From: a virus
IMG/VR virus record: IMGVR_UViG_3300030106_006223
Location: 1 to 37,724 of that record
Direction: 5' to 3' (one strand)
Length of the DNA stretch: 37,724 bases
This document shows positions 15,601 through 37,724 of this stretch, in pieces. Each line of letters opens with the position of its first letter. The stretch's first letter is position 1. The translations under genes and the position numbers were made by a program. The notes below the pieces were generated by a model. It had not been told where the DNA came from, searched no databases, and saw only the letters and a list, made by a program, of their open reading frames with translations.

Positions 15601-18600
15601 TCCAGAGGCAAACATCGCTGTTGATGTAAAGACTTTCACTCAAGCACTAAGACTTGAAGATGATAGTAGAGACGAAAGGAGTTTTGGTAATGGATTATTC
15701 GTATCAAATTATGCAAGATATGAAGGAACAGAAAATGCTGTTAAGAAGACTTTCACTTTGGAGCATAGGTCTGCACCGATATTTGAAAAGTATTTCTTAG
15801 GTAATGATTCAAATATTGTTAGTATCAGTGCTGATACAATTAATATTCCGAATCACTTCTTTGTTTCTGGTGAAAAAGTTAGATATGATAGAAATGGCGG
15901 AATTACATCCTCTATTGGTATTGGGGAGACTAATTTTGCTGGACTTGGTAATACTGAATACTTACCTATTGAACAAGATATTTTTGTGATTAAAGTTAAT
16001 GATGATAAGATTAAACTTGCATCTTCTGCAGAAAATGCATTGAAGAAAATTCCAGTTCCCATTGATATTACTAGTGTTGGAATTGGAACTTCACATAGGT
16101 TTAGTTCAACCAATCAAAATGCAAGATGCCTTCTTGCACTTGACAATTTAATTCAGTCTCCAATCGTCTCTACTTCGCAGACAACCGGTCTTTCTACTAA
16201 TGTTAGCACTGTTGATAATATTATTTCACTGAGTGGTATACAATCATACTTTGGATCTGATCTCATTAAAATGGGTAATGAGATCATGAAAATTACTGCT
16301 GTTGGAGTTGGAAGCACAAATGCAGTTACAGTTAGAAGAGGCCAACTTGGAACAAAAATTGGTATTGGATCTACTGGAGATGCAATTACTAAAGTTGTAG
16401 GAAATTACAATATTACTGACAGTACTCTTCACTTCGCTGAAGCACCTTTCGGTGGTCAACCAATTGGTAGTACAACAAACAGACCAGATGAAAGAGATTG
16501 GGAGGGTATTACACAAAGTTCTTCTTTCCAAGGAAGAACATTTATGAGATCTGGTATTGAAGATGATACAGATGATACTTATTCTACAAATTATATTTTT
16601 GATAGTCTCTCTAATAAATTTGATGGTAATACTTCTGCATATACTTTAACAAGTGTAGGATCAAATGATATTACTGGAATTTCTACTGGTAATGCAGTTG
16701 TTCTAATTAATGATATTCTGCAAGGTCCTGGATTAAGTAGAGACTTTACATTAAGTGAAAATTCTGGTATTACCACCATTACATTTACTGGAACTGCATC
16801 ATCTACAACTACAGATGCCAATACTTCCGGATTACCTGTCGGTGGTGTTCTGCTTTCTATGGGATCTTCGGAAGGATTTGGATATCAACCTCTTGTTTCT
16901 GCTGGAGCAACTGCTAAGGTAACTAACACTGGAATTCTTACCGATGTTGCCATTGGTAACACTGGATCTGGATATAGAGCATCTGAGAAGTATGAATTCC
17001 TTGTTAATACCAATGAGTTTGTAGGAATTGGATCAACTGAAATATTCATTCCAAATACTGGAAGTGTTCTTGATATTCTTCCACAATTAAACAGTGGTTC
17101 TAACTGTGAAATAACATTTGGAAAATTAACAGACTCATTTGTCTCTGGCACTATCGTATCATCTGCATCCACTTTTGTAAGACTTCATATAGATGATGAG
17201 ACAACTGTAGGAATTCCAACAGGAACTCAAACTTTAATTAGTGTGTCTAATCCTCCAATTGGATTTGTCAATATAAGTGCTGCTTCTACAAGTGTTGGTG
17301 TAGAAACTTCTATCTATCACGTTGGATTCTCTACTATAATTAATGGACGTGTTTCAACTGCTATTTCGGTTACTAATACCACTGCACAGTTCTATCCAGA
17401 AAAATCAATCACTAACGTTGGTTATAGTTCAATCACAGGAATAACAACTGTTACAACATCTACTGATCATGGTTTATCTGCGGGTGAAGCGATTCAATTA
17501 TCAGGTATAGCATTCACCTGTACTTATGCACCACCTGTTAACGTTTCAAATGTTCTTTATGATAACAATAGTGGGGTTACTACAATCACTACATCTGCCA
17601 TACACCAATTACAGGTAGGAAAAGGTGTAGTTCTAACTGGTATCGCATTTACTTGTGGTCTTGATAATGGTTCATCAACTCACACATATCCAAGAACTAC
17701 CGATCCAGCTTATTGTGGTGTTAAAGTTATTGAGGTACTGAGTACAACACAATTCGTTGTTAACACTGGAATATCTACAGTTCCAACTTTCTATCAGAGT
17801 GGTGGAACAATTCAGGGTGCTATTATTGATGCTCCAAGGAAAAAGAATAAGTCTGCTACTGGAAATGATTTTGCATCTGGTGGTTCCTCAGTAATTGCAG
17901 TTCTTTCTCCTACGTCTTTCGTTGTAAACACTGGAACCTCGACTTGCCCTCATTTCTATAATAGATGTGGTAAGGTCAACAGGCCATTGTCCCTGTTTGT
18001 TGATGATCCACTTTCATATACTAATATCCCACTCAATTATGTTGGTGCGGCAAATTCTGGATTAAATGGGACAGTTGACGTTGTTGTTGGTCAAGGATCT
18101 AGTATTATTGATTTTTCTATTAATAATAAAGGTGTTGGATATAAAGAAGGGGAAATCCTCACTATTCCAACTGGGGGTCTCACAGGAATTCCTACAACAG
18201 GATCATACAGTAATTTTAGGCAATTTGAATTAACCGTTCAAAAAGTATTCTCAGATGAATTTACTGGATGGAGTCTTGGTGTCCTTCAAGCACTTGATGA
18301 TCCATCAGTTCTCTTTGATGGTTCAACTAGGGCATTTAATCTAACACTTTCTGGATCTCAACTTTCTATTAAAGCGTCAAGAGGATCTAAAGTTGACGTT
18401 GAAAAAGTTCTTGTTGTAACTATTAATGATATTCTCCAAGAACCAGGCAAAGGTTACACATTCCCAGGTGGTAGTGTAATTACATTTACAGAACCACCTA
18501 AAGTTGGTGATAGTTGTAAGATTCTCTTCTATAAGGGAACTGGTGATGACACTGATGTTATCTTTAGAGAAGTCATCGAAACCGTTAAAAAAGGAGATAC

Positions 18601-21456: not shown

Positions 21457-24400
21457 ATGCCACAGCAAACGAACCTTAATGTAGCACCATATTTTGATGA
21501 TTTTGATCCGGTAGATGATTACCATAAGGTGCTATTTAAACCTGGTTATCCAGTTCAAGCAAGAGAATTAACTACTTTACAATCGATTCTTCAGAATCAG
21601 GTTGAGAAGTTTGGCCAGCACTTTTTCAAAGAGGGTGCTAAGGTAATTCCAGGCAATACTGGTTATACTCAATTATATTATTGCGTTCAACTACAAAATA
21701 CTTATTTGGGTGTTCCTGTTGCAGCATATGCTCAACAATTGGTTGGAACTAAAATTACTGGAGAAACATCTGGAGTAAGTGCTGTTGTAGATAAGGTTCT
21801 TTTGTCAGATGATTCTGAAAGAGGAAATCTTACACTTTATATTAATTATCTTAATTCTAGCACTACAAATAATTCAACTCAAACTTTCTCTGATGGAGAA
21901 AACTTAACATGTAATCAGGTTATTGCTTCTGGTCTCCTTGGGAATAGCACTATATCTGCTGGATCACCTTTTGCAACAACAATTTCAGATGAAGCATCTG
22001 CTACTGGATCTGCTTTTCAAATTCAAGAAGGTGTATATTTTATTCGTGGGCATTTTGTTAACGTTAATACAGAAACTCTAATTCTTGATCAGTATAGTAA
22101 TAATCCTAACTATAGGGTTGGTCTATTCGTAAATGAGACAATTGTCAATGCTGATGAAGATGATTCTCTGAATGATAACTCTCAAGGATTTAATAACTAC
22201 TCAGCTCCAGGTGCAGATAGACTTAAAATTTCTGTAAGTTTGTTTAAAAAATCACTAACTGACTACAATGATGATCAGTTTGTTGAGTTAGCAATTATTG
22301 AAGATGGAAATATAAAAACAAAAGCAGACAGAGGAGATCTTGGTGGAGGACCAGGACATCTTGATGTTAGAGATATTTTAGCAAAAAGAACTTATGCAGA
22401 ATCTGGTGATTATTATGTAAAGGCATTTGATTTATCCGTTCATGAGTCCCTTAATAATGGAATAGGAAACAGAGGTGTATTTAAATCTGGCCAGTTGACT
22501 TTTGGAGGACAAACTCCATCTGATGACTTGATGCTGTATAAATTCTCTCCAGGTAGAGCATTTATTCGTGGTTATGATATTGATATTTCTAGTGTTACTT
22601 TTATTGATGTTCCCAAACCAAGAACAACTGCAACTATTGATGATCAATCAATAATTTATAATACCGGTCCAACACTGAAAGTTAATAGAACTTGGAGAGC
22701 ACCAGATGTTGGAGTTGGTAATACATACATTCTTAGTTTAAGAGATCAAAGAGTAGGTATTTTAACAGATGGAGACTCAGGAGTTCCGAATCCTGCCGGT
22801 AGAGAAATTGGTGTTGCTAGAGTATATGATTACAGATTAGAGTCTGGTTCTTATAGCACTACTAATAGTAGTCTAAATGAGTGGAATCTTTCTCTGTATG
22901 ATGTTCAAACAACAGTAGATTTGGTTCTTAATCAAGCAACAACTCTTTCTGTCCCTACTTTTGTTCAGGGTAATAATAGTGGTGCAACTGCATTTATTAA
23001 AGATGCAGTCTCAGACTCAAATGCAGTATCTTTGTATGAGGTAGAGGGGGACTTTATTCCTAATGAAGCCCTGGTGTTCGATGGAATTATTGACGGCAGA
23101 ATTGCTATTGCAGTGACTACATACAGTTTATCCGATGTAAAATCTGTCTTTGGAAGCAATGATAGAACAACTGGTATTAATACTTTTGCTGCTGATGTTG
23201 TTCAGTCTCCAGTAATTAATGTTGGTGTTGCAACTATATCTACTGCATCTGGTGGAGTTAGTACAGTAAGAAGCACCAGTGATGCACTTCCCGGATTATT
23301 TAAAGTTGGGGATCTTGTTGAGTATACTAATACTGCATTAACTTTAACTGATATTTCGGTTGCAAGGGTTTCTAGTGTTGGTATTGATAGTATTGGACTT
23401 AGTGCAGTAACTCGTGTCCCAGGAATTGCATTTGGTGCTCTTCCAACATCCAATATCAACGTAAATGACTTTAAGTTAGTAACAACAAAACTTGATCCTT
23501 CTTCCGACAGTACACTTTACACAAGACTACCAAAAACCGATGTTGCCACTGTTGATTTTACCGACGCATCTCTAACAATAAGAAAAGTATTTAGTGTTGA
23601 TATTACCAATAATCAACTTGCTTCTCAATTAATTGCTGATGTTAATGAGACTTTCTTACCGTTTGATGAAGAAAGATACGCACTTATTAGAAGTGATGGA
23701 GTAACTGAAGCATTATCTGCAGATAAAATATCTATTAATACTGCTGGAACAGGATTAAACATTTATGGTCTTGGTGCTGATGATACTGGAGCATCTCTTA
23801 TTGCATCATTAAAGAAGATTAAACCAACTTCAAAAATTAAAATCAAGAACAGAGTTAAATCTTTAATCGTTGACAAATCAAACGTTCAGGCTTCCGGAAT
23901 TGGATCAACAACATTAAATGATGGATTGGATTATGGTAATGGTAATTTTCCATATGGAACTAGAGTTCAAGATACCACCATTTCCTTAAACGTTCCAGAT
24001 ATTATTGAAGTTCATGGTGTTTTTGAATCTGCGGATACTAATAATGCTACTGCACCCAAAGTTTCTCTTATTAATATTAGTAGTACATCTACTACAACAG
24101 GAGAGTTGTTAGTTGGAGAGTCTTTTATCGGACAAACCTCTGGAGCAAATGGAATCGTAGCAGAAAAACTCACTTCTTCACAGATATCATATATCTCTAA
24201 AAACGATAAGAAGTTTGTGGAAGGAGAAACTATTATCTTCCAAGAAACAGCAATTCAATCTGTAATATCTGTTTTAAATTCTGATAGTTTTGATATATCG
24301 GATAATTATAAATTTAGAACTGGTCAGGAGGAAACTTTTTACGATCAGGGAAGAATTATTCTAAAACAAGGAAAGTCTGCTCCCACTAAAAAATTAAAGA

Positions 24401-27400
24401 TTTACTATAAGAGTGCGTCTTTTGATTCAACAGACAATGGAGATCTTACTACCGTAGAGTCATATAAGAATTTTGACTATAGCAGGGAAATTAAAAGTAT
24501 TAATGGAGATGCGAATACTGATATAATTGACATCAGACCGAGAGTTTCTGAATATACTGTCTCGGAAGGTACAAGGTCACCTCTTGAATTTTTTGGAAGA
24601 ACTTTTAATGGTTCAGGAAATTCAGCTACAAATGCATTAGCATCTGATGAGGCTATACTAACAACATTTTCTCATTATCTTGGAAGAATTGATAGAGTAT
24701 TTTTAGATAAGAAAGGAAAATTTCAAATTGTATATGGAACTCCATCAGAATTACCACAACCACCGAATCCAATTGATGATGCTTTAGAGGTTGCTAAGGT
24801 TACTCTACCTCCTTATCTCTATAATGTTAAGCAGGCATCTCTGAAGTTCTTGGAACACAAGAGATACCAGATGAAGGATATCAAGAAACTTGATAATAGA
24901 ATCTCAAGTCTTGAGTATTACACATCACTTTCTTTACTTGAGACAAATACAGCAAATCTATTTCTCCCAGATGGTGATGGATTAAACAGATTTAAGTCTG
25001 GTTTCTTTGTAGATAATTTTACTGGATTTGCTGCTCAAGAGACGAGCGCACCAGTAAAAAACAGTATTGATAGGGCACACAAAGAGTTGAGACCAAGACA
25101 TTACACAAACTCGGTCGATCTTATTTTTGGTCCTGTTGTTAATGTAGACTCAACCGCAGATCTTAATTTTGCAACCATTGAAGGAAATAATATAAGAAAG
25201 GCAAATGATGTAATTACTCTCGATTATAGTGAAGTTGAATATATTAATCAACCATTTGCAACTAGAACAGAGAGTGTCACTCCTTTCTTGATTAGTTTCT
25301 GGCAGGGAAGTATGGAGTTAAGTCCAGTATCTGATACTTGGGTTGATACTGTAAGAATTGAACCTAAAGTTATTGATATTGAAGGTGATTATGCATCTCA
25401 AATTGAGATCCTTCAACAAACAGAAAATCTTGATCCACAAACTGGTTTTGCTCCTGTTCTTTGGAATTCATGGGAAACTAATTGGACTGGATTTGACTTT
25501 AATGATACAACTGAAAGAAGAACAACAACGCAGAATGGTGGCAGAAGAGGTGTTGGCGGTTGGATCAATGGTGGTTCTGGTACGGCACAATGGGTTGTAG
25601 ATCAAACCACATCGACTATTGAAGATACTGTTAGAGAAACCATTGAAACTGGAGTCGAAACAAGAACTGGTAGCCAGTTATTTGTTCATGAGCAGTTTGA
25701 CCGTGAGTCTGTAGGAGACAGAACAGTAAGTAGAGATCTCGTTCCATTTATGAGATCAAGAAACGTTGAATTTATTGCTAAGAGAATGAAACCCCTCACA
25801 AGAATGCACGCATTTTTTGATGGAGAGCAGGTTGATGAATTCTGTGTTCCAAAACTTCTTGAAATTTCTATGACATCTGGAACATTCCAGATTGGAGAAA
25901 CTGTTATTGGTAGAATGGCTAGACCTGGACTTGCACCCGTTGCAAGAAGATTAGTTAATGAAGATCCAAGAATTACTTTTAGAGTTGCACAATCAAATCA
26001 TAGAGAGGGAGAATATAATGCACCTGATCAAGTATTCAGAGAAAGTCCTTATGATGGAACTCCTCTATCCGCCATATATTCTGCAACATCAACAATATTA
26101 AATGTTGATACATTTTCATTATCGAACGAATCTCAGGGGCAGTATTCTGGGTTTATTTCTGAGGGGATGATTCTTAAAGGATCTACTAGTGGTGCAGAAG
26201 CAGTTATAACAGGAAATAGACTAATTTCTGATATTGCTTCAAATTTGTCAGGTAGTTTCTTCATTCCTAATCCAAATAGTGTTAATCACCCAAGATTTGA
26301 GGCGGGAACAAAAACACTTACTTTAACTAATGATGAGGATAATGATCCAAATATAGCAACAACCATTGCCGAAGAAGTATTTACTTCCTCCGGAACACTT
26401 GAAACGGTTCAGGAAAATATCATTTCCGTCAGAAACGCAAGAATTGAAAGAAGGCAGGAGTTCCAGGAAAGAAACGTAAACAGAAGTCTTGGAACCGAAG
26501 TCGTTGGTTCTCAAGTTACAAATCAATCAACTACGACAGCGGTGGTTGGTTGGTATGACCCTCTTGCACAATCATTCCTGGTTGAGGAAGAGACTGGCGT
26601 ATTCATCACCAAGTGTGATGTGTTTTTCAGGACAAAAGATGATAATGATGTTCCTCTGGTGTTCCAGATCAGAACAATGGAAAATGGATTCCCGACTCAA
26701 AAGGTTCTTCCATTCTCTGAAATTGTTATTGATCCTGCAGATATTGATACATCTGATGATGGTTCAGTAGCAACAACAATTGAATTCAAAGCTCCTGTTT
26801 TCTTAGAAGGTGGTAATGAATATGCAATCGCTCTTGCATCTAACTCTACTAAGTATAGTGTTTATATTTCTAGAATTGGAGAGAATGATCTCTTGAGTGA
26901 TTCATTCATCTCAAACCAACCATATCTTGGATCTTTGTTTAAGTCTCAGAATGCTTCAACTTGGGAAGCAAGTCAGTGGGAAGATCTTAAGTTTATCATG
27001 TATAGAGCAGACTTCCTTGAATCTGGCACTATCGATTTCTATAGTCCAGAACTATCCGAAGGAAATAGACAGATACCTGTTCTTCAACCAGATGCACTTG
27101 AGGTTTCCTCTAGAAAAATTAGAGTTGGTTTAGGAACTACCGTTCAAGATGCCAACTATGAGATTGGAAATTTATTCTTCCAGGGCATTGGAACCATAAA
27201 TCCATCTAATAGTAGTGGAGTTTTGATCGGTGTCGCAGGAACAATTCCAAGTGCCTCATTGACAGTCTCTAATGCGGGTATTGGATTAACTCCAACTGAT
27301 GGGTCTTTTACATTCACTGGAGTTGATCTAGTAACACTAACAGGAAATGGTAGGGGTGCTCAAGCCACTGTTGCAGTTACTAATGGTGCTGTTACATCAG

Positions 27401-29037
27401 CAACTATTACTGGTTCTGGTGGTAATGGATATCAAACTGGTGATGTTGTCGGAATTGATACGATTGGTGCAGCATCAGTTGGTAGAAATGTAAGACTTAC
27501 AGTTTCTGGTATTGGTAAAACTAGTGAACTTATTCTTGATAATGTTCAAGGAGAATTTAAGACAGGTGCTGGTGTCGGAGTGCTTAACTTCTTTGATAGT
27601 GTGGGTATTGCTAGAACTCTGAATAATGATCTACCTGCCGCACCTGGTGGAAATGTCACAATTAATGCTATCACTGAAATTTCTGATGGACTTCATATTA
27701 AGGTTAATCATCAAAACCATGGAATGTACTTCCCAGATAATAGAGTTATTATCTCCGGAGTTCTTCCAGATGTTAAACCAACTAAGTTGAGTGCTGAGTA
27801 TGCTTCTAACTCTACGTCTGGTATATCTGTTGTAAATGCAGATTCTTTCTCCACCTTTGAGAATGTTAGTGTTGGAACCACAAATACAGGATATCTCTTG
27901 ATTGGGGAAGAAATTATTGAATACTCTAGTGTTGATGGAACTACTATTGGTGGTAATATCTCCAGAGGAAGTAATCCGATTACATATCCTGTCGGAACTC
28001 CAGTTTACAAGTATGAACTCGGTGGAGTTTGTCTTCATAGAATTAATAAAACTCATACCTTGAGTGATGTTTCTATCGGAAGTTCTATTACTTTTGATTC
28101 TTATAATATCAAACTTGATATGTCTGAGAAGTTTAATGCTAGTAATGATGATAGGAGTAATGATGTTGGGTTCCCCAAACTTTATATGGGCACTACCGGA
28201 TCTACCGGAGGACCAAATATCACAGCAACTCAAAACATGCCATTTGAAATTATTACTCCAATTGTTCAAAATGTAACAACAAGAGGAACTTCTATCAGTG
28301 CCGAGGTTAGAACTGTAACGAGTAAGAGTATAAGTGGTAATGAAATTGCTTATCTTGACGCTGGATTTGAGGCTATTGTTCCAAACGCACCAAACTACCT
28401 TAATAGTACGAGAATGATTGCGTCTAAAGTTAATGAGGACGCTAAGTTGACTAATATTGAGGGTGCTAAGTCACTACAAATGAGACTTAACATGGTGACA
28501 ACTGATTCTCTTATTTCTCCAGTGATTGATGGTCAGAGAGTAAGCACGATTCTTTCATCGAATAGAGTTGATAGTCAAATTACTGATATTGCAAATGATT
28601 CTAGAGTGAAAGGAATACTGACAGATCCAACTGCTTGTCAGTATATTTCTAAGGAGATTAAACTTGAAAATCCAGCTACTTCACTTAAAGTCATTTTAGA
28701 TGCCCATATCAATGATTTCTCCGATATTAGAGTTTTGTATGCTATCAGTAATAAAGATGGATTTAATCCCATTTTTGTTCCATTCCCTGGATATAAGAAC
28801 TTGAATTCAAAGGGTCAAATCATCGACATTGCAAACAATAATGGAGAACCTGATTCGTTTGTATCGAAAACTCCCACATATGGATTTGATAGCGGTTCTG
28901 TTGAATTTAAGGAACATACATTTAGTATTGATGAATTGCCTTCATTCAAATGCTACAGAGTTAAAATTCTGTTGACAGGCACTTCTCAAACATATGTACC
29001 AAGAGCTAGAAACCTAAGAGTCATGGCTTTAGCATAA
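21457..29037 (+). CDS. DUF4815-type large tail/baseplate protein, 2526 aa
   Basis: The N-terminus (LNVAPYFDDFDPVDDYHKVLFKPGYPVQARELTTLQ..., residues 7-42) is typical of DUF4815 proteins, large virion proteins of T4-like marine phages. Later segments include a GETSG module at about 101-106 and again near 883-905. FIAKRMKPLTRMHAFFDGEQ is at about 1440-1460. DPLAQSFLVEEETGVFITKCDVFF, near 1700, opens a beta-sandwich seen in phage fibre proteins. An RG-type insert lies near 2124-2188 and a compact C-terminal beta domain ends RARNLRVMALA. It occupies the place of T4 genes 9-12, so it may replace the peripheral wedge and fibre-attachment proteins; this is inference. Its stop overlaps the next start (TAATG). 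Confidence 0.88.
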   Translation: MPQQTNLNVAPYFDDFDPVDDYHKVLFKPGYPVQARELTTLQSILQNQVEKFGQHFFKEGAKVIPGNTGYTQLYYCVQLQNTYLGVPVAAYAQQLVGTKITGETSGVSAVVDKVLLSDDSERGNLTLYINYLNSSTTNNSTQTFSDGENLTCNQVIASGLLGNSTISAGSPFATTISDEASATGSAFQIQEGVYFIRGHFVNVNTETLILDQYSNNPNYRVGLFVNETIVNADEDDSLNDNSQGFNNYSAPGADRLKISVSLFKKSLTDYNDDQFVELAIIEDGNIKTKADRGDLGGGPGHLDVRDILAKRTYAESGDYYVKAFDLSVHESLNNGIGNRGVFKSGQLTFGGQTPSDDLMLYKFSPGRAFIRGYDIDISSVTFIDVPKPRTTATIDDQSIIYNTGPTLKVNRTWRAPDVGVGNTYILSLRDQRVGILTDGDSGVPNPAGREIGVARVYDYRLESGSYSTTNSSLNEWNLSLYDVQTTVDLVLNQATTLSVPTFVQGNNSGATAFIKDAVSDSNAVSLYEVEGDFIPNEALVFDGIIDGRIAIAVTTYSLSDVKSVFGSNDRTTGINTFAADVVQSPVINVGVATISTASGGVSTVRSTSDALPGLFKVGDLVEYTNTALTLTDISVARVSSVGIDSIGLSAVTRVPGIAFGALPTSNINVNDFKLVTTKLDPSSDSTLYTRLPKTDVATVDFTDASLTIRKVFSVDITNNQLASQLIADVNETFLPFDEERYALIRSDGVTEALSADKISINTAGTGLNIYGLGADDTGASLIASLKKIKPTSKIKIKNRVKSLIVDKSNVQASGIGSTTLNDGLDYGNGNFPYGTRVQDTTISLNVPDIIEVHGVFESADTNNATAPKVSLINISSTSTTTGELLVGESFIGQTSGANGIVAEKLTSSQISYISKNDKKFVEGETIIFQETAIQSVISVLNSDSFDISDNYKFRTGQEETFYDQGRIILKQGKSAPTKKLKIYYKSASFDSTDNGDLTTVESYKNFDYSREIKSINGDANTDIIDIRPRVSEYTVSEGTRSPLEFFGRTFNGSGNSATNALASDEAILTTFSHYLGRIDRVFLDKKGKFQIVYGTPSELPQPPNPIDDALEVAKVTLPPYLYNVKQASLKFLEHKRYQMKDIKKLDNRISSLEYYTSLSLLETNTANLFLPDGDGLNRFKSGFFVDNFTGFAAQETSAPVKNSIDRAHKELRPRHYTNSVDLIFGPVVNVDSTADLNFATIEGNNIRKANDVITLDYSEVEYINQPFATRTESVTPFLISFWQGSMELSPVSDTWVDTVRIEPKVIDIEGDYASQIEILQQTENLDPQTGFAPVLWNSWETNWTGFDFNDTTERRTTTQNGGRRGVGGWINGGSGTAQWVVDQTTSTIEDTVRETIETGVETRTGSQLFVHEQFDRESVGDRTVSRDLVPFMRSRNVEFIAKRMKPLTRMHAFFDGEQVDEFCVPKLLEISMTSGTFQIGETVIGRMARPGLAPVARRLVNEDPRITFRVAQSNHREGEYNAPDQVFRESPYDGTPLSAIYSATSTILNVDTFSLSNESQGQYSGFISEGMILKGSTSGAEAVITGNRLISDIASNLSGSFFIPNPNSVNHPRFEAGTKTLTLTNDEDNDPNIATTIAEEVFTSSGTLETVQENIISVRNARIERRQEFQERNVNRSLGTEVVGSQVTNQSTTTAVVGWYDPLAQSFLVEEETGVFITKCDVFFRTKDDNDVPLVFQIRTMENGFPTQKVLPFSEIVIDPADIDTSDDGSVATTIEFKAPVFLEGGNEYAIALASNSTKYSVYISRIGENDLLSDSFISNQPYLGSLFKSQNASTWEASQWEDLKFIMYRADFLESGTIDFYSPELSEGNRQIPVLQPDALEVSSRKIRVGLGTTVQDANYEIGNLFFQGIGTINPSNSSGVLIGVAGTIPSASLTVSNAGIGLTPTDGSFTFTGVDLVTLTGNGRGAQATVAVTNGAVTSATITGSGGNGYQTGDVVGIDTIGAASVGRNVRLTVSGIGKTSELILDNVQGEFKTGAGVGVLNFFDSVGIARTLNNDLPAAPGGNVTINAITEISDGLHIKVNHQNHGMYFPDNRVIISGVLPDVKPTKLSAEYASNSTSGISVVNADSFSTFENVSVGTTNTGYLLIGEEIIEYSSVDGTTIGGNISRGSNPITYPVGTPVYKYELGGVCLHRINKTHTLSDVSIGSSITFDSYNIKLDMSEKFNASNDDRSNDVGFPKLYMGTTGSTGGPNITATQNMPFEIITPIVQNVTTRGTSISAEVRTVTSKSISGNEIAYLDAGFEAIVPNAPNYLNSTRMIASKVNEDAKLTNIEGAKSLQMRLNMVTTDSLISPVIDGQRVSTILSSNRVDSQITDIANDSRVKGILTDPTACQYISKEIKLENPATSLKVILDAHINDFSDIRVLYAISNKDGFNPIFVPFPGYKNLNSKGQIIDIANNNGEPDSFVSKTPTYGFDSGSVEFKEHTFSIDELPSFKCYRVKILLTGTSQTYVPRARNLRVMALA

Positions 29038-29840: not shown

Positions 29841-30686
29841 ATGGCTCAACCCGCAAGTAGGTCTGACCTAGTAAACTACTGTAAAAGACAACTGGGAGCA
29901 CCAGTTTTAGAAATCAATGTTGCTGAAGAGCAAATTGATGATCTAATAGATGATGCCCTTCAGTATTTTCATGAAAGACATTTTGATGGTGTAGTACAAA
30001 CATATTTAAAATATAAAATCACAGAAGGAGATATTAATAGAGGCAGAACACGAGGGGATAATCAAACTGTTGGTATTGTAACCACAACAGCGTCTTCAAC
30101 TATAGACGGTGCGTCTGTAACATTTTCCTTTGAGGAAAACAGCAACTATTTACAAATTCCCCCACAAGTTATTGGGATAAACAAGATATTCAGATATGAT
30201 GGGTCACAAACGGTGACCAATAATATGTTCAGTGTGAAATATCAATTATTCTTGAATGATCTTTATAACTTCAGTTCTGTAGATATACTATCCTATGCGA
30301 TGGTGAAAAGGTATCTTGAAGATGTGGACTTTTTATTAAATACAGAAAAACAAATAAGATTTAATCAGAGACAGGATAGACTTTATCTTGATGTTGATTG
30401 GGGTGATGTGACTAAAGACGATTATCTCATTATTGACTGTTATAGACTTTTAGATCCAAACGATTTTACTAGAGTTTGGAATGATTCTTTCCTGAAAAGA
30501 TATGTGACTCAATTAATTAAAAGACAGTGGGGACAAAATCTTATGAAGTTTCAAGGAGTAAAGCTTCCTGGTGGAGTTGAACTGAATGGTAGACAAATTT
30601 ATGATGATGCTCAAAAGGAACTTGATGCGATTAGAGAGGTCATGTCTAATACTTATGAACTTCCTCCATTAGACATGATTGGTTAA
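29841..30686 (+). CDS. 13: gp13-like neck (head-completion) protein, 281 aa
   Basis: This is a homologue of T4 gp13, which with gp14 completes the portal vertex and forms the platform for tail attachment. Residues 8-55 are diagnostic: a short helix, then QLGAPVLEINVAEEQIDDLI and LQYFHERHFDGVVQTYLKY, parallel to T4 KLGAPVLNIEVTDDQIDSCI...GEYHFDGVNKGY. The length (281) is close to T4 (309). A later segment, PNDFTRVWNDSFLKRYVTQL and KRQWGQNLMKFQGVKLPGGV, is typical of the family. It starts at ATG 29841 after a late promoter. The gp14 ATG follows four bases after its stop. Confidence 0.94.
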   Translation: MAQPASRSDLVNYCKRQLGAPVLEINVAEEQIDDLIDDALQYFHERHFDGVVQTYLKYKITEGDINRGRTRGDNQTVGIVTTTASSTIDGASVTFSFEENSNYLQIPPQVIGINKIFRYDGSQTVTNNMFSVKYQLFLNDLYNFSSVDILSYAMVKRYLEDVDFLLNTEKQIRFNQRQDRLYLDVDWGDVTKDDYLIIDCYRLLDPNDFTRVWNDSFLKRYVTQLIKRQWGQNLMKFQGVKLPGGVELNGRQIYDDAQKELDAIREVMSNTYELPPLDMIG

Positions 30687-30690
30687 TCTT

Positions 30691-32136
30691 ATGCTTAATC
30701 CATATTTCCAGCAAGGGGCAAGGTCTGAACAAAATTTAATTCAGGATCTTATCAACGAACAGTTGAGGATGTATGGCGTTGAGGTGCATTATCTTCCGAG
30801 AAAATATTTAACTGAGAATACAGTCATTAAAGAAGTAATACAATCTAAATTTGATGATTCATATCCAATAGAGGCATATGTAGATAATTTTGATGGTTAT
30901 AATGATAATGCAACAATATTATCAAAGTTTGGAATACAACAGCAGCAAGAATTAAATTTAATTATTTCAAAGGAAAGATTTGAGACTTATATTTCTCCTT
31001 TGATGAAAAATGAACAGAATGTGAGATTGTCTACGAGACCGAAAGAAGGGGATTTAATTTATTTTCCACTCGGGGATAGACTTTTTGAGATTAAATTTGT
31101 TGAGCATGAAAAACCATTCTATCAACTACAAAAAAATTATGTTTATGAACTGAGATGTGAATTGTTCAGATTTGAAGATGAGGTAATTGACACTGGTATT
31201 GATAGTATTGATGATGTTTTGATAGGTGGAGAATCTGATGGTTTATCTGATAGTGGAACGTCTAGTATTATTGGAAACATTCAAACTCTTACTCTTGTTG
31301 GAACTGGTGTAACTGCAACTGCGGTGGCTGGTATTATTACTGAGGGTGGAATTCGTACAATTACTGTAACAAACAGAGGTGGCGGATACACCTCTGTTCC
31401 AAGAGTTGCAATATCATCTGCTCCCTCAGGAGGAATTACTGGTATTGCAACTGCAGTGATGATAGGTGGAATTAATGTATGTAATCAGAGTGCTAATCCT
31501 AAAGCAAGATCTGTTCAAAATATTAATATTATAAATCCAGGAGCTGCATATACTCTTGCTCCAGGTGTTCAGGTTACAGGTGGAGGAGGTGCTGGTGCCG
31601 CTGCAACAGCAACAATTGCTGATGGTGTTGTAGGAATTATAACTATCACTGCAGGCGGTTCTGGATACGTTACGGACCCAACTATTACATTTAGTAATGA
31701 AGTATTCTTGTCCGGTGTAAGCACTGCAGGTGCCGCTGCAACAGCAATTGTTAGTGCTGCTGGTACTATCAGCGGTATTCACTTTACTAATGCTGGATTG
31801 GGGTATAGCACTGCACCTACAATTACAATCTCTGATCCAGATATGGATTCTACAGGTGAGTTTGTATTTAATGAAGTTGTTACGGGATCTAGTAGTGGGA
31901 CAACTGGCAGAGTCAGAGTTTGGAACTCTGAAACCAATATCCTTGAGATAGCAAATGTTACAGGAACTTTCACTCTTGGAGAAAACATTGTTGGATCTAC
32001 GTCGGGTGCATCGCATGAACTTAGAAAAGTCAACGTAAATCCAATTGATGACGGATTTGCAGATAATGTTAATATAGAAAACGAAGCAGATTCTATCATA
32101 GACTTCTCTGAACAAAACCCATTTGGAATTCCATAA
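30691..32136 (+). CDS. 14: gp14-like neck protein with beta-repeat extension, 481 aa
   Basis: This is a homologue of T4 gp14, the neck protein acting with gp13. The N-terminal half matches: MLNPYFQQGARSEQNLIQDL, then YGVEVHYLPRKYL, EAYVDNFDGYNDNATILSKFG, EGDLIYFPLGDRLFEIKFVE and PFYQLQKNYVYELRCELFRF. T4 gp14 has 256 residues. Here residues about 214-384 are four GxGY beta repeats (GGGYTSVPRV, GAAYTLAPGV, GSGYVTDPTI, GLGYSTAPTI). A GE-x-V-x-G-x-SG module follows at about 388-450, then a short end. I chose ATG 30691 over the in-frame TTG at 30679, which overlaps gp13. Its stop lies inside the gp15 late promoter. The extension implies neck decorations absent from T4. Confidence 0.93.
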   Translation: MLNPYFQQGARSEQNLIQDLINEQLRMYGVEVHYLPRKYLTENTVIKEVIQSKFDDSYPIEAYVDNFDGYNDNATILSKFGIQQQQELNLIISKERFETYISPLMKNEQNVRLSTRPKEGDLIYFPLGDRLFEIKFVEHEKPFYQLQKNYVYELRCELFRFEDEVIDTGIDSIDDVLIGGESDGLSDSGTSSIIGNIQTLTLVGTGVTATAVAGIITEGGIRTITVTNRGGGYTSVPRVAISSAPSGGITGIATAVMIGGINVCNQSANPKARSVQNINIINPGAAYTLAPGVQVTGGGGAGAAATATIADGVVGIITITAGGSGYVTDPTITFSNEVFLSGVSTAGAAATAIVSAAGTISGIHFTNAGLGYSTAPTITISDPDMDSTGEFVFNEVVTGSSSGTTGRVRVWNSETNILEIANVTGTFTLGENIVGSTSGASHELRKVNVNPIDDGFADNVNIENEADSIIDFSEQNPFGIP

Positions 32137-32179: not shown

Positions 32180-33181
32180 ATGTTTGAATATTTTTATAAC
32201 GAAATTTTGAGGAGGACCATCATATCCTTTGGCACTCTATTTAATGCTATAACAATTAAGCAAACTAATAGTTCTGATAGCATTGTTAACACTATCAGAG
32301 TCCCTTTATCCTATGGACCTACTCAAAAGTTTCTTGCAAGACTTGAGCAGCAAGCAGATTTAAATAAATCTACATCAATTACATTGCCAAGAATGTCATT
32401 TGAATTTATTGGAATGACATATGATCCCTCAAGAAAAGTATCAACAACACAACAATACACTGTAAAAGACCCAGACGATGGATCTGAGTCAAAGAAAATT
32501 TATATGCCAGTTCCATATAATATGCAGTTTGAGTTGAGCATAATGTCAAAGTTAAATGATGATGCTCTACAAATTGTTGAACAAATCCTACCATTTTTTC
32601 AACCATCATATAATTTAACTGTTGAGTTAGTTGAGTCGATACAAGAAAAGCGTGATATTCCAGTGATTCTTGAGAATATCACTATGCAGGATGATTATGA
32701 AGGTGATTTTACAACAAGAAGAGTTCTTCTCTATACTTTAAGATTCACCGCAAAAACATATCTGTTTGGCCCTGCAACATCTGCAACCAAGGATATTATC
32801 AAGAAAGCATCTATCAGTTATCTTACTGGAACAGATACTACAAATACGACAAGAGAAGTTACTTATTCTACTGTTCCAAGAGCAATCAAGAATTACACTG
32901 GAGACGCTGCTACAACTGTTGCAGTGGATGCCACTAAGACTGCCAAGTTAATTGAAGTTGAAAGCGTAAGTGGATTAACTGCTAAGTCTTACATCGCTAT
33001 TAATGATGAAGAACTCTTTATCTCTTCCATCACCGGCAATAAACTTACCGTCAAGAGAGCACAAGATAAAACAACTGCAACAGAACATCTTAGAGGTGCA
33101 GAAGTTCATGTTATTGATTCTGCTGATAATGCATTGATTGAAGAGGGTGATGATTTTGGATTTAGTGGTACGTTAACATGA
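32180..33181 (+). CDS. 15: gp15-like tail completion and sheath-stabilising protein, 333 aa
   Basis: This is a homologue of T4 gp15, the hexameric terminator that caps tube and sheath and joins tail to neck. Matches include the start MFEYFYNEILRRTIISFGTL, IRVPLSYGPTQKFLARLEQ (39-57), LPRMSFEFIGMTYDPSRK (69-86), PVPYNMQFELSIMSK (110-124) and DALQIVEQILPFFQPSYNLT (128-147). T4 gp15 has 272 residues. The surplus is a C-terminal module at about 256-312 (LIEVESVSGL...YIAINDEELFISS...RGAEVHVI) of the RG-insert type found in the giant and DUF4815 proteins. It starts at ATG 32180. The stop overlaps the gp16 ATG by four bases. Confidence 0.95.
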   Translation: MFEYFYNEILRRTIISFGTLFNAITIKQTNSSDSIVNTIRVPLSYGPTQKFLARLEQQADLNKSTSITLPRMSFEFIGMTYDPSRKVSTTQQYTVKDPDDGSESKKIYMPVPYNMQFELSIMSKLNDDALQIVEQILPFFQPSYNLTVELVESIQEKRDIPVILENITMQDDYEGDFTTRRVLLYTLRFTAKTYLFGPATSATKDIIKKASISYLTGTDTTNTTREVTYSTVPRAIKNYTGDAATTVAVDATKTAKLIEVESVSGLTAKSYIAINDEELFISSITGNKLTVKRAQDKTTATEHLRGAEVHVIDSADNALIEEGDDFGFSGTLT

Positions 33182-33600
33182 CAAGTAAATTTGATAGTTT
33201 AAATAATGAGTTCAATGTTGATGGAGACATTGTGCAGTCTGAAATCGTTAATGAAAAAATTCAAAAAATAGAAAAAACATCAGATGATATTAAAAAGGAT
33301 TACGATTACACAAGAGGAAATCTTTATAGTATAATAGAAAAAGGGCAAGAGGCAATCAATGGTATTTTGGAACTTGCACAGGAAAGTGAGATGCCCAGAG
33401 CATATGAAGTTGCAGGTCAATTGATTAAAAATGTTGCTGATGCCACAGACAAATTAATGGATCTTCAGAAAAAACTGAAGGATGTTGAAGAAGAAAAACA
33501 ATCTCGTGGACCATCCACTGTTAATAACGCACTCTTTGTCGGATCTACAGCAGAACTTGCAAAGATGTTAAAACAGGGGGTAAAGGAAGAGAATAAATAA
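33178..33600 (+). CDS. 16: gp16-like small terminase subunit, 140 aa
   Basis: This is a homologue of T4 gp16, which recognises phage DNA and regulates the gp17 packaging motor. The core DYDYTRGNLYSIIEKGQEAI (41-60) with PRAYEVAGQLIKNVADATDK and LMDLQKKLKDVEEEK matches the T4 central hairpin (DDYGVVRRNM...SPRHMEVFATLMGQ...). The end NNALFVGSTAELAKML matches T4 NATVFMGSPTELMDEI. The length (140) is near T4 (164). It starts by ATGA overlap with gp15. Gene 17 does not follow directly: three other genes lie between here and the window end. Its stop overlaps a late promoter. Confidence 0.93.
   Translation: MTSKFDSLNNEFNVDGDIVQSEIVNEKIQKIEKTSDDIKKDYDYTRGNLYSIIEKGQEAINGILELAQESEMPRAYEVAGQLIKNVADATDKLMDLQKKLKDVEEEKQSRGPSTVNNALFVGSTAELAKMLKQGVKEENK
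33592..33599 (+). promoter_or_regulatory. late promoter AATAAATA ahead of the fibre gene
   Basis: This NATAAATA octamer ends 24 nt before the GTG at 33624 and overlaps the stop codon of gp16 (33598-33600). It probably starts the transcript for the three downstream genes. Confidence 0.65.
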
Positions 33601-33623: not shown

Positions 33624-35804
33624 GTGCCATTAAAGAAACCTTCAGAATTTTTTGGTAAGAATAAAAACGACTTTGATGAGATCAAAGATAATTTTTCTGC
33701 GGAAAAAATTGAAACGGTTTCAGAGGCTTTCAGTGCTTTCAAAACAAACTTAAATCACATACAATCTATATCAGACTTTTCTGTTACTGTTGAAAACTTT
33801 AAACAGAATGTTGATAGAGTTGAAAGTATTTCCAAAGAAATTTCAGAAGTAAAAGAAGATATTCAAGGACTGATTAGTAAAGAAGATTTGGATGAGGCAA
33901 TGGTTGCCCACCTCCTCTTTGTGGAAGAGTCTATCAAGAAAATTGAGGGAAGAATCAAGAGTATCAATGGAGATACTATTGATAAAATAAAAGAAGATTT
34001 TACAAACCTATCTCAAACGGTAGAAAATTTTGTCGATGTTGATATTCCAAATTACAAAAAATTAGTATCAGAATCTGAAATTAGATTTGATACTAGATTC
34101 TCAAATTTCAAAGGTAATGTAGAAGAAAATATTGATACTATTAGAGCAGATGTTAATAAAGAAGTTACAACTGCTTTATCTGATGTTCAATCGATCAATC
34201 AAAATACCGTATTAAACTTAAAAGAAGATTTAAAGAAAACAACAAAAGACATTAATGAGACTGTTAGCGATCTTGTTAATGAAGAGTTTCCCAAGTATAA
34301 AAAACTTTTTGCAGAGACTGAATTAAAAACGGAACAGAGAGTTTCTGCATATGATGAAGTCATTGAAAAGTTAACCTTAATGGTTAAGGAGTTTACTGAG
34401 AATGAAATTCCAAAGTATAGTAACTTACTTGTAGAGACAAAGATAAAATCAGAAGAAGAAGTAAAAGAATTAGAAAAGAATGTATTGGAACAAGTTCAGT
34501 CTCTGAAAGAGCAGATTGAAGTTTTATCTAGTGATGTTACAGAAAAAACTTCTGATATTGATTCTCTAATTGAAAGTAAAATAGAAGAATTGCAATCAAC
34601 AATTGATGACTCTAAACAAAAAATAGGAGATATATCTGATGTTTACATGGCTCTCTATAAAGATTTTAAGGATAGAGAAATTCATGAAAATAAAAAATTA
34701 GAGGAATATTCTGGAGAACTTGATAAATTCTCAAAGAAATTTTCTTTCTTTGAGGAAACTCTTTCCGAAGATGTAAGAGAACTCCAAAATGTATTGGATA
34801 TCGGTACAACAAAATATTATGATATTCTTAAGAATGAGGTAGGAGAATTTGAAGAAAATATGTCCAATCAGATTAAGGATTTAGAACTTAATTTGGTTGT
34901 TAATGAGAAACATATCAAAAAACAAAATGAAAGTATTGACAGCATCAAGGAAGAGATAAAAGATGTTATAGAAAAACTTCAAATTAATTCGATTGAGGAA
35001 AAAAATAAATCTTTATCTGAGAAAGTAGTTTACATTGAAAAAATCCTTACAGAGTTTAATGAAAAAGCAATATTAAAAGAAGATAATCCAACTCTACCAG
35101 GAGATGCCTCTACAAAAAATTCAGCAGATCCTTTAACTCCTCTTGATCAAAATTTTGTAACTATTGATCAATTACAACAACACTACAAACTTTTCATCAA
35201 TAGAATCCAGCAACAAATTGCTACCATCGGTGGTGGTGGCGCTGGATTCATTAAAGATTTAGATGATGTTACCTTTGATCAAACCACGGGCACTAATGAG
35301 TTGCTCATTTATAACGGATCGAAGTGGGTTGGAATTGCTAGTACATCATTAAGTGGTACGACACAACTTATTAGTCTCACTGATGTTGATACTGCAAATC
35401 TTGGTGACGGTAGATTTTTAAGATATGATGCTTCAGCTGAGGAATTTACATTTGCTCCGGTATCAGCAACTAATCTTGAATTAATTGCTGGTGATATACA
35501 ATCGGGTATCCTTACAACAACTAGTACAAGTGCTGCGGTTGTAATGTCCATAAGTGCATCGACTTATAGATCTGTAAATTATCAAATTCAGGTCACTAGA
35601 GGGACTAATTATAATATGTCAACCATTAATGTTATACATGATGGCACGACTACATATATGACTGAATATGGTACTATTAATCAACCAATTGGAGTTGCGA
35701 CTTTCTCATCCGATATTAGTAGTGGTTCATTAAGATTGATAGGACATCCAGCATTTTCTTCAGAAACAACTTTTAAGGTAGTATTCACTGCACTAGAGGT
35801 ATGA
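33624..35804 (+). CDS. long coiled-coil fibre-like virion protein, 726 aa
   Basis: It starts with GTG at 33624 after a late promoter; MPLKKPSEFFGKNKN is a plausible anchor. Residues about 15-500 are almost entirely charged heptad helix, interrupted by a recurring break motif at about 140 (DIPNYKKL), 221 (EFPKYKKL) and 261 (EIPKYSNL). A linker (LPGDASTKNSADPLTPLDQN) leads to a short helix and a GGGGAG hinge near 540. Two fibre-type units follow (LDDVTFDQTTGTNELLIYNG; LTDVDTANLGDGRFLRYD). The last 90 residues form a beta domain with STINVIHDGTTTYMTEYGTI, similar to part of the giant protein. This looks like a trimeric rod with a distal head, perhaps a whisker or collar fibre. Function is inferred from architecture and position only. 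Confidence 0.82.
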   Translation: MPLKKPSEFFGKNKNDFDEIKDNFSAEKIETVSEAFSAFKTNLNHIQSISDFSVTVENFKQNVDRVESISKEISEVKEDIQGLISKEDLDEAMVAHLLFVEESIKKIEGRIKSINGDTIDKIKEDFTNLSQTVENFVDVDIPNYKKLVSESEIRFDTRFSNFKGNVEENIDTIRADVNKEVTTALSDVQSINQNTVLNLKEDLKKTTKDINETVSDLVNEEFPKYKKLFAETELKTEQRVSAYDEVIEKLTLMVKEFTENEIPKYSNLLVETKIKSEEEVKELEKNVLEQVQSLKEQIEVLSSDVTEKTSDIDSLIESKIEELQSTIDDSKQKIGDISDVYMALYKDFKDREIHENKKLEEYSGELDKFSKKFSFFEETLSEDVRELQNVLDIGTTKYYDILKNEVGEFEENMSNQIKDLELNLVVNEKHIKKQNESIDSIKEEIKDVIEKLQINSIEEKNKSLSEKVVYIEKILTEFNEKAILKEDNPTLPGDASTKNSADPLTPLDQNFVTIDQLQQHYKLFINRIQQQIATIGGGGAGFIKDLDDVTFDQTTGTNELLIYNGSKWVGIASTSLSGTTQLISLTDVDTANLGDGRFLRYDASAEEFTFAPVSATNLELIAGDIQSGILTTTSTSAAVVMSISASTYRSVNYQIQVTRGTNYNMSTINVIHDGTTTYMTEYGTINQPIGVATFSSDISSGSLRLIGHPAFSSETTFKVVFTALEV

Positions 35805-36235
35805 AAAATTTTAATCAGTTCCTTAATGAGCAACCAACTAATAATGTGGGTAATGGTGGATACACCAATGATGGAGGACAGACTGTTGCTGGATTTGATA
35901 AAAAACTGTTTCCCTCCGATGAAGATGATTTAACTCAAGACTATCAAACTCCTGGAGAATCTGGAGAATCAAAGTGGAGATTTTCTGATGTTTATCCTGT
36001 TCTAAAATTATCCCTAAGTAAATCAAGTGATGGACCCTCAATCGATGCTATGGTTGCAGCATCAAAAATGTTTGTAGATAGAATGGATAATCCTCAGGAG
36101 AGAGTTAGAAAAACATTTGAACAGTTTCAAGAGGATTGGAGTGATAAATATAAAAAGAGTATTGACTGCTCTAATCCAAAAGGATTCTCACAAAAAGCAC
36201 ATTGTGCTGGACGTAAAAAGAGATCTAAAAAATGA
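35801..36235 (+). CDS. small probable virion protein with basic Cys-pair tail, 144 aa
   Basis: The ATG overlaps the fibre stop (ATGA). An N-terminal NFNQFLNE segment is followed by a Gly/Asn/Asp-rich, probably flexible region to about residue 50. Next comes a helical part with FSDVYPVLKLSLSKSSDG and AMVAASKMFVDRMDNPQERV, and finally a basic motif IDCSNPKGFSQKAHCAGRKK with Cys at 123 and 135. I recognise the C-NPKGFSQ-AHC-GRKKR tail as a short unit at the C-terminus of several marine phage proteins; its role is not established to my knowledge. It could bind DNA, metal or membrane. The next gene also starts by ATGA overlap. Confidence 0.75.
   Translation: MKNFNQFLNEQPTNNVGNGGYTNDGGQTVAGFDKKLFPSDEDDLTQDYQTPGESGESKWRFSDVYPVLKLSLSKSSDGPSIDAMVAASKMFVDRMDNPQERVRKTFEQFQEDWSDKYKKSIDCSNPKGFSQKAHCAGRKKRSKK
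36143..36150 (+). promoter_or_regulatory. possible internal late promoter GATAAATA
   Basis: This NATAAATA octamer lies inside the 144-aa gene, 81 nt before the start of the last gene. Coding constraint could produce it by chance (the codons read Asp-Lys-Tyr), so support is weak. Confidence 0.25.
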
Positions 36236-37724
36236 GCAACCCTCGTATTCCAAGAAAACCTGGTCAACCAGCAAATTCCAAGAAGCACTCCGATCTTTAT
36301 ACGGATGAAAATCCAAAGGGGACGATTCATGGACTTGGATTCAAGGATGTTGCAACTGCTAAAGCATCTGTAACTAAAATTCGTAATTCTTCTAGATCAC
36401 ATGCTCATAAAATCCAGGCTGCCGTTGCCATGGAACAGAGAGCAAGAGAAATGGGTAAAACTTCAGAAGCAGCAGTTTATCGTAAGTTCATTAATTCTAT
36501 GAAGAAAAAGACTAAAGAGATGAACGAAGAGAAGAAGAACGGTCGTTGTCCAGAAGGACAATACTATTGTTACACTGATAAAAAATGTAAACCTATTCCA
36601 AAGGGTTACAAGATGGTAGGCCGTGCTGGATATCTTCGTAAAGAAAACGGTCACTCCGTTGATGATAGTAAAAAAAATGGTAATGGGAACGGAAATGGAA
36701 GCACAAACGGAAACGGGAACGGGAACGGAAACGGGAACGGCGGTGCGGTCTCGGAGGGGAACAAAAGTGGTGATTCTTCTTTGCGTGACTGGTTTGGCAA
36801 GAGTCGCTCTTCTGATGGGAAGCCTGGCTGGGTTCAGTTGGGTGGGAAGTATGCAGGAAAACCCTGTGCCAGACAACCAGGACAAACAACAAAACCAAAG
36901 TGCGGTTCTAGCAAAATGAAGCGCAATCTTTCCAAAAAAGAGGAAGATGCAGCCTTTCGTCGTAAGAATCGTCAAGATCCAAATCCAGATAGAAAAGGGA
37001 AGGCAATTAACGTGAAGACTGAAGAATTTACAACCTTACCACTCAACATTGAGATTCCTAATAACATTAGAGATTTCAATCTTGGACTTATGTTCCGTGA
37101 AAGTCTGGATATCAACAGTGGAATGCTATTCATCTTTGAAGAAGTTGAGCAGCAGTCCTTCTATATGAAAGAAACAAAAATTCCTCTCGATATTGCTTTC
37201 ATTAGAGAGGATGGAATAATCGAAAGTATTAAAGAATTAGAACCATATGACGAAACCCCAGTAACTTCTGATGGAGAAGTTCTGTGCGCTTTAGAAGTAA
37301 ATCGTGGATGGTTCGCTGAAAATAATGTTGAAGTAGGTGATGAGATTGACATTGAGGAAGGTAAGAAAGATGCTTGCTACCATAAAGTCAAATCACGCTA
37401 CTCAGTTTGGCCAAGTGCATATGCGTCAGGAGCACTTGTCAAATGTCGTAAAGTTGGTGCTGCCAACTGGGGAAATAAAACAAAGAAAGAAGAATTTTCA
37501 AATTGGAGAGATAACTACATTCCAACAGATTATGAAACAACAGATCTCATTACACCAGAACCATTAACCGCTACAAAAGGTATTGGTAGTGAAATGTTGG
37601 ATGAAGCAGGTAAGAAATGTTGGAAGGGTTACAAAAAAGCAGGAACTCAAAAACTCTTCGGTAAGACTTACAATCGCTGTGTAAAAGCCGGAGATGAAGT
37701 TATACATGATGGTGAAGATATTGC
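36232..37724 (+). CDS. multi-domain DUF192 protein with Cys-pair motifs, partial (497+ aa)
   Basis: It begins by ATGA overlap at 36232 and stays open to the window edge. Modules in order: a basic helical N-terminus (about 1-100) with GTIHGLGFKDVATAKASV and HAHKIQAAVAMEQRAREMGK, familiar from marine viruses; a three-Cys motif (C106, C113, C119); an Asn-Gly repeat linker (149-171); and a DUF5872-like basic segment with KPGW and C212/C224. A DUF192 (UPF0127) domain follows at about 269-375 (GLMFRESL, SGMLFIFEEVEQQSFYMKET, IPLDIAFI, ALEVNRGWF). Two more basic Cys pairs are C382/C405 (YSVWPSAYASGALVKC) and C463/C483 (CWKGYKKAGTQKLFGKTYNR). It is probably a late, possibly virion-carried protein. 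DUF192 function is itself unsettled. The true end is outside the window. Confidence 0.82.
   Translation, partial: MSNPRIPRKPGQPANSKKHSDLYTDENPKGTIHGLGFKDVATAKASVTKIRNSSRSHAHKIQAAVAMEQRAREMGKTSEAAVYRKFINSMKKKTKEMNEEKKNGRCPEGQYYCYTDKKCKPIPKGYKMVGRAGYLRKENGHSVDDSKKNGNGNGNGSTNGNGNGNGNGNGGAVSEGNKSGDSSLRDWFGKSRSSDGKPGWVQLGGKYAGKPCARQPGQTTKPKCGSSKMKRNLSKKEEDAAFRRKNRQDPNPDRKGKAINVKTEEFTTLPLNIEIPNNIRDFNLGLMFRESLDINSGMLFIFEEVEQQSFYMKETKIPLDIAFIREDGIIESIKELEPYDETPVTSDGEVLCALEVNRGWFAENNVEVGDEIDIEEGKKDACYHKVKSRYSVWPSAYASGALVKCRKVGAANWGNKTKKEEFSNWRDNYIPTDYETTDLITPEPLTATKGIGSEMLDEAGKKCWKGYKKAGTQKLFGKTYNRCVKAGDEVIHDGEDI
36676..36744 (+). repeat. Asn-Gly dipeptide repeat
   Basis: Alternating AAC/AAT and GGN codons encode ten Asn-Gly pairs interrupted once by Ser-Thr. 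The tract links the three-Cys motif to the DUF5872-like segment and is presumably a flexible linker. The GGGAAC/GGAAAC hexamer repetition makes it prone to length change. Confidence 0.85.

Follow-up and report, generated by a model that had tools for sequence, protein, structure and literature searches.

The window analyzed here is the whole of IMG/VR virus record IMGVR_UViG_3300030106_006223 (37,724 nucleotides), which belongs to a marine T4-like cyanomyovirus. Toward its right end are two adjacent genes, one encoding a 144-aa protein and the other the first 497 amino acids (aa) of a protein that is completed at 676 aa on a 99%-identical contig, L005. Both proteins contain basic units with conserved cysteines, here called beads. 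We suggest, with a probability of roughly 0.55, that they are head-internal proteins of T4-like cyanophages, processed by the prohead protease and carried with the DNA. Their placement inside the head rests on the linkage of beads to head genes, a T4-type capsid targeting sequence (CTS) at the start of the 144-aa protein, and a copy of the mature N-terminal arm (N-arm) of the capsid protein gp23 immediately behind it. In the model we propose, the CTS would send the 144-aa protein into the assembling prohead, and a gp21-type prohead protease would remove it after E10. This would expose the arm copy, through which the protein may take up an arm site on the inner shell or scaffold and so keep the basic Cys bead there. 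The 676-aa protein strings together unrelated basic Cys beads and the domains DUF192 and DUF6321, with hydrophobic-x-E at the joints. At least in part, this string is probably cut by the same protease before DNA entry, and the released bead peptides would stay with the DNA. A wider picture, offered tentatively, is that heads are loaded with a cut-apart Cys-bead polyprotein and with small proteins bearing the mature N-arm of their own capsid, so that cargo docks inside by imitating a shell subunit.

The 676-aa protein was divided into nine units, U1-U9, and the C-terminal bead of the 144-aa protein was named U10. The two genes and the N-terminal features are as follows.

35801..36235 (+): 144-aa protein with targeting start, capsid-arm copy, middle region and basic C-x11-C bead
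35801..35830 (+): CTS-like start MKNFNQFLNE, aa 1-10 of the 144-aa protein, putative prohead-protease cut after E10
35831..35914 (+): copy of the mature gp23 N-arm, QPTNNVGNGGYTNDGGQTVAGFDKKLFP, aa 11-38 of the 144-aa protein (shuffle z 19)
36110..36133 (+): internal KTFEQFQE, aa 104-111 of the 144-aa protein, aligning with the N-terminal MKTFKQFQE of stand-alone bead proteins
36232..37722 (+): 497-aa portion of the 676-aa bead protein, open at the window end (PHROG phrog_727)

Targeting start and capsid-arm copy

In T4, residues 4 and 7 of an N-terminal decapeptide direct targeting, residues 8 and 10 govern processing, and gp21 cuts after L/I-x-E (PMC9026906). The 144-aa protein has aromatic F4 and F7, hydrophobic L8 and E10, and its start (MKNFNQFLNE/Q) compares with MKTYQEFIAE/A in both IPII and IPIII (T4 record). 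The putative cut follows [LI]xE, the same site type as in gp23; position 4 is L in three homologues. Judged from these sequences, head targeting of the 144-aa protein is well supported. Stand-alone U10 proteins (39-51 aa) begin MKTFKQFQE, close to the CTS-like start, and both U10 and U8 exist as small proteins immediately after such a start.

In 10 cyanophages, 21 of 2577 approximate genes have CTS-like starts, versus 2.8 expected from shuffled N-termini; short U8 proteins beside the gene for the terminase large subunit (TerL) are among the 21. The pattern of the first scan was built from T4 and window sequences, and all three S-CREM2 matches of this stricter scan are in its published virion proteome, which holds 52 detected proteins among 219 annotated genes (PMC10665884). 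With a pattern relaxed after the N-termini of detected proteins had been viewed, six of the seven marked annotated S-CREM2 genes were virion-detected (hypergeometric P 8e-4, partly post hoc). These encode SAM hydrolase, Cas9-like nuclease, gp13, kinase, gp136 and cytidylyltransferase, with starts fitting [FL]..F[LMF].E. The regions of CTS-marked, virion-detected genes are OR473000.1 3837-5081, 7704-12846, 107301-108014 and 124608-125468. For an independent phage, S-SCSM1, one of two CTS-marked genes (NMNAT) is a virion protein. Possibly a CTS-like start is a sorting rule for cyanophage virion cargo. A literature search on capsid targeting in cyanophages found none except a T4 review. Separately, the virion-detected S-CREM2 gp15 (OR473000.1 12843-13331) starts with MNFSEFNE followed by CPEGYKWNKKLGKCEP, which is reminiscent of bead U2.

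The arm copy is clear from alignment. Residues 7-36 of the 144-aa protein are 73% identical to S-SM2 gp23 (E 9.3e-10), and the match spans the predicted protease junction: ..MIAE/QPTNAVGNGGYTSSGGQTVAGFDPVL in gp23 versus ..FLNE/QPTNNVGNGGYTNDGGQTVAGFDKKL in the 144-aa protein. All ten gp23 (10/10) have [LI]xE before the arm. When each cyanophage genome was searched with its own gp23 arm, an arm-copy protein was found in 9/10 genomes (E 5e-12 to 6e-4; unrelated matches from about 0.015). In S-SM1, S-SCSM1 and SynMITS9220M01 the copy is encoded by a small gene that precedes the primase gene by a few hundred bases, a neighbourhood that holds where checked, and in S-CREM2 gp160 it is fused to beads U3, U6 and U5. 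The small proteins match phrog_696 (E 3e-12), labelled 'major head protein'; S-SM2 gp23 itself is in phrog_138. The small basic arm-copy genes are:

S-SM1 152805-153353 (T4-GC426 in the record)
S-SCSM1 93082-93306
SynMITS9220M01 135146-135340
S-CAM9 135665-135895
S-PRM1 57190-57420
DSL-LC02 115061-115276
P-TIM68 146969-147283

Units of the bead proteins and their occurrence

The earlier note on this DNA had proposed a family of Cys motifs, 10-30 residues long, in these two proteins. Its cysteines were all recovered: C106, C113, C119, C212, C224, C382, C405, C463 and C483 in the 497-aa frame, and a basic C-x11-C end (C123 and C135, net +7 over aa 104-144, K/R-rich flanks) in the 144-aa protein. 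Every one of them is invariant in the relatives of U2, U3, U5, U6 and U10 collected with hidden Markov models (HMMs); the counts are among unique sequences, many of them close relatives, and are moderate evidence alone. Several units proved longer than the range given (U3 about 80, U9 about 72). A single homologous family was rejected, the profile-profile probability (hhalign) being below 3% for all unit pairs. A DUF192 domain had been overlooked; it contains a further cysteine, C352, and is matched by PDB 3m7a and 3pjy in sequence and fold.

36137..36232 (+): bead U10 of the 144-aa protein, WSDKYKKSIDC-x11-CAGRKKRSKK, both Cys 13/13
36232..36525 (+): U1, basic helical unit without Cys, aa 1-98
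36538..36651 (+): bead U2 (C106, C113, C119), all three Cys 46/46
36766..37011 (+): bead U3 (C212, C224), both Cys 64/64
37045..37353 (+): U4, DUF192 domain (PF02643), E 8.5e-26, 90.4 bits versus Pfam cut-off 27
37363..37491 (+): bead U5 (C382, C405), Cys 33/33; also encoded in other phages by free-standing genes of 44-64 aa
37612..37692 (+): bead U6 (C463, C483), Cys 19/19 and 18/18

Beyond the window, in L005, the protein goes on with a Cys/His unit, U7 (C-x-H-x-[HN]...C-P-x-H-G...C, three Cys 45/45), a folded unit, U8 (a small beta-beta-alpha-beta unit without Cys according to AlphaFold), and U9, which is DUF6321 (PF19846; E 1.7e-22, 80.3 bits versus Pfam cut-off 28.5). Apart from DUF192 and DUF6321, searches of Pfam, NCBIfam and PDB sequences with the beads gave no match, Foldseek with the 676-aa model gave significant matches to DUF192 structures only, and a literature search on DUF6321 found no papers. 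A weak, under-cut-off AbiV-like match in U1 was disregarded. U2 and U3 are joined by an Asn-Gly repeat linker (window 36658-36747), the length of which differs between the window and L005.

U3, U5, U6, U9 and U10 have only two conserved cysteines each, and with so few a disulfide is a likelier candidate than a metal site in most beads. U7 is the sole unit whose own ligands (C-H-H/N-C-H-C) suffice to suggest that it could bind a metal. Net charge is +13 in U3, +9 in U5, +9 in U6 and +15 in U9, and -19 in DUF192 and -3 in U7. The strong positive charge of most beads would fit contact with packaged DNA.

The description of these units as beads on a string was borne out, as they reappear in changed order and as genes of their own, which is stronger evidence than Cys invariance. 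The order is U8-U10-U3-U5-U6-U9 in S-CAM9, U3-U6-U5 in S-CREM2 and U1-U10-U2 in P-TIM68, the last located shortly after gp23. Among phage records, tblastn found U2 in 40, U3 in 349, U5 in 366 and U6 in 51, nearly all of them cyanophages, and U5 additionally in roseophages. U5 is also present on 23 contigs filed as bacteria or archaea. On contigs so filed the beads are mostly separate small adjacent genes; L144 has U9, U10 and U5 consecutively. They lie downstream of the major head protein on L144, L148 and L150, immediately behind TerL on L153 and behind a cytidylyltransferase on L141. Several of the contigs filed as bacterial or archaeal metagenome-assembled genomes (L139, L141, L144, L147-L155) bear phage head genes beside the beads. 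Therefore they are probably of viral origin and were binned with cells, and a cellular origin of the beads was not accepted. Unrelated marine phages encode the beads as separate genes, adjoining major head protein, connector or TerL genes. Since beads adjoin head genes on L144, L148, L150 and L153, the link between bead and head is independent of T4-like gene order.

Occurrence of relatives in virions has been reported by others. Both S-CREM2 bead proteins, gp137 (carrying U8 and U9; 4 unique peptides) and gp160 (7 unique peptides), are in its published virion proteome (PMC10665884). In S-SCSM1, for which 45 virion proteins were reported by mass spectrometry, the multi-bead protein gp29 (S-SCSM1_29) and the arm-copy protein S-SCSM1_97 are both annotated 'virion protein'. 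The S-E7 record labels its homologue 'structural protein, T4 GC0119'; T4-GC119 is called hypothetical in PMC3037559. An earlier suggestion was that the two proteins are packaged or ejected with DNA. Packaging gains support from relatives in virion proteomes, from the CTS-like start with its arm copy, and from head-gene neighbours, whereas ejection into the host, like DNA contact and the disulfide or metal chemistry, is something we infer.

Candidate cuts and alternative explanations

The motif [LIVMF]xE is found in 97 of 114 nonredundant joints, versus 42.3 after shuffling each joint and 26% of equal windows in ordinary proteins of the same phages. With a small residue behind it, as [LIVMF]xE[AGS], it is found in 50/114 versus 9.3. 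Six linker sites match in the protein of L005 (E99, E173, E374, E456, E497, E524). The candidate cuts in the window are:

36520..36528 (+): MNE99/E
36748..36756 (+): VSE175/G
37351..37359 (+): IEE376/G
37597..37605 (+): LDE458/A, a strict T4 L-x-E/A site

A number of points weigh against head-internal, protease-processed bead proteins. First, strict T4 [LI]xE is in only 41/114 joints (18.1 shuffled), and V and M are common at joint position P3, whereas all ten gp23 have L or I. Second, the 676-aa protein has no N-terminal CTS-like start (it begins MSNPRIPRKPGQ), and S-SCSM1_30 has such a start yet no virion protein label. Third, own gp23 is the best match for only 5/9 arm-copy proteins. Fourth, the AlphaFold model of the 676-aa protein has a mean predicted local distance difference test (pLDDT) of 48, too low to give bead folds. 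Fifth, the 726-aa neighbour is tail-fibre-like. Finally, virion mass spectrometry covers relatives and other CTS-marked proteins and cannot tell head from tail, and the S-CREM2 authors caution that co-purification is possible (PMC10665884).

Cutting between beads, which is suggested by the motif enrichment, is regarded as plausible and not firmer, mainly because of V and M at the joints. It is a real possibility, though not the one we favour, that the head-internal string stays uncut as one long basic protein, the x-x-E joints being a by-product of module exchange through a common linker or recombination seam. Besides the P3 residues of most joints, which are not the L/I of T4 and gp23, the wide variation in module order would be expected from exchange at shared seams. 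However, the enrichment needs a hydrophobic residue at -2 and A/G/S at +1 of the E, over joints of unrelated units, and free-standing beads exist, so single units can work alone.

The arm similarity could instead reflect a short signal shared with gp23, serving scaffold or protease for example, and not mimicry of the shell. This would suit a short, Gly/Ala-rich arm, and in four phages the arm-copy protein matches a foreign gp23 as well as or better than its own. We consider it somewhat unlikely. The copies of S-SM2, P-TIM68, S-CREM2 and SynMITS match their own gp23 best, idiosyncratic stretches included, and the similarity falls within the mature sequence, beyond the cut, where no protease signal would be called for. 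The own-best matches are suggestive of co-evolution of copy and capsid but not proof of it, a use for which 5/9 was rejected as too weak alone.

The beads might also be host-takeover factors that are ejected, as T4 IPI or Alt are, and not DNA-bound structural peptides. Other CTS-marked cyanophage proteins are enzymes with a possible role in the host (SAM hydrolase, kinase, NMNAT), and the variable g15-g18 content marks a hyperplastic region thought to be adaptive (PMC2984593). But no recognised enzyme or inhibitor family is found among the beads, and their basic charge, invariant Cys and linkage to head genes in unrelated phages equally indicate a virion role; the takeover explanation seems unlikely to us. 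We find it improbable that the two proteins form part of a tail-fibre or neck cassette and sit on the outside of the head. The tail-fibre-like gene upstream overlaps the 144-aa start codon and neck genes gp13-gp15 are nearby, but the CTS-like start and arm copy, the beads of other phages that lie behind TerL or have a major head protein gene on one side and connector genes on the other, and the P-TIM68 units behind gp23 all stand against it.

The gene order toward the right end of the window is gp13 (Ad2), gp14, gp15, gp16, the 726-aa gene, the 144-aa gene and the open 497-aa frame, and it is very similar in the closest isolates, SynMITS9220M01, Bellamy and S-SM2. The bead genes had been placed between gp16 and gp17, and this was confirmed by gp16 on the left and by TerL, which starts a few bases behind the 676-aa protein in L005.

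33178..33600 (+): gp16, terminase small subunit (phrog_445, E 5.9e-56), the left landmark
33624..35804 (+): 726-aa tail-fibre-like coiled-coil protein, in the place of S-SM2_107 'phage tail fiber-like'; its stop and the 144-aa start overlap

Two other observations concern the region upstream. gp14 (head closure Hc2; window 30679-32136, 485 aa) seems to carry an inserted fibre-like domain: its C-terminal half resembles segments of tail-fibre, baseplate and virion structural proteins. The neck genes are preceded by two very long frames, one of 4389 aa (window 6689-19858) and one of 2526 aa (window 21457-29037).

Comparison with known systems

Enzymes and hypothetical proteins in cyanophage virions have lacked an explained route into the particle, and the S-CREM2 authors left open whether theirs were real cargo. 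The T4-type start on six S-CREM2 virion proteins may offer a simple sorting rule, and the capsid-arm copies suggest a second means of holding cargo in the head. The bead families, common to unrelated marine phages as separate genes, would gain a first functional setting. Among described groups, the 676-aa protein falls over its full length into phrog_727 (E 7e-172), the T4-GC119 cyanophage proteins, a group with no recorded function. Its DUF192 and DUF6321 memberships are above curated cut-offs; both are families of unknown function.

Three systems of processed head proteins provide parallels. The inner-body and ejection proteins of phiKZ and SPN3US are head-internal and processed after a short Glu-ending motif (PMC9026906), as is proposed here for the bead proteins; however, they are much larger and from unrelated phages, and the likeness is not based on sequence comparison. 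The T4 core proteins gp22, gp67 and gp68, which gp21 cuts into several peptides, have several [LI]xE-type sites per head protein, a likeness proposed here for the 676-aa protein. Their fragments mostly leave the head, whereas here the putative fragments would be conserved Cys units. The closest parallel for the 144-aa protein is with T4 IPI, IPII, IPIII and Alt, which share its N-terminal decapeptide with aromatic residues 4 and 7, hydrophobic residue 8 and E10 (PMC9026906). The T4 internal proteins are likewise small and variable among relatives (PMC9026906). Neither a capsid-arm copy nor Cys beads are mentioned for them in the cited papers, and the 676-aa string differs from them in its start. 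Beside the T4 internal-protein system, the copies of the capsid arm are the most unexpected element.

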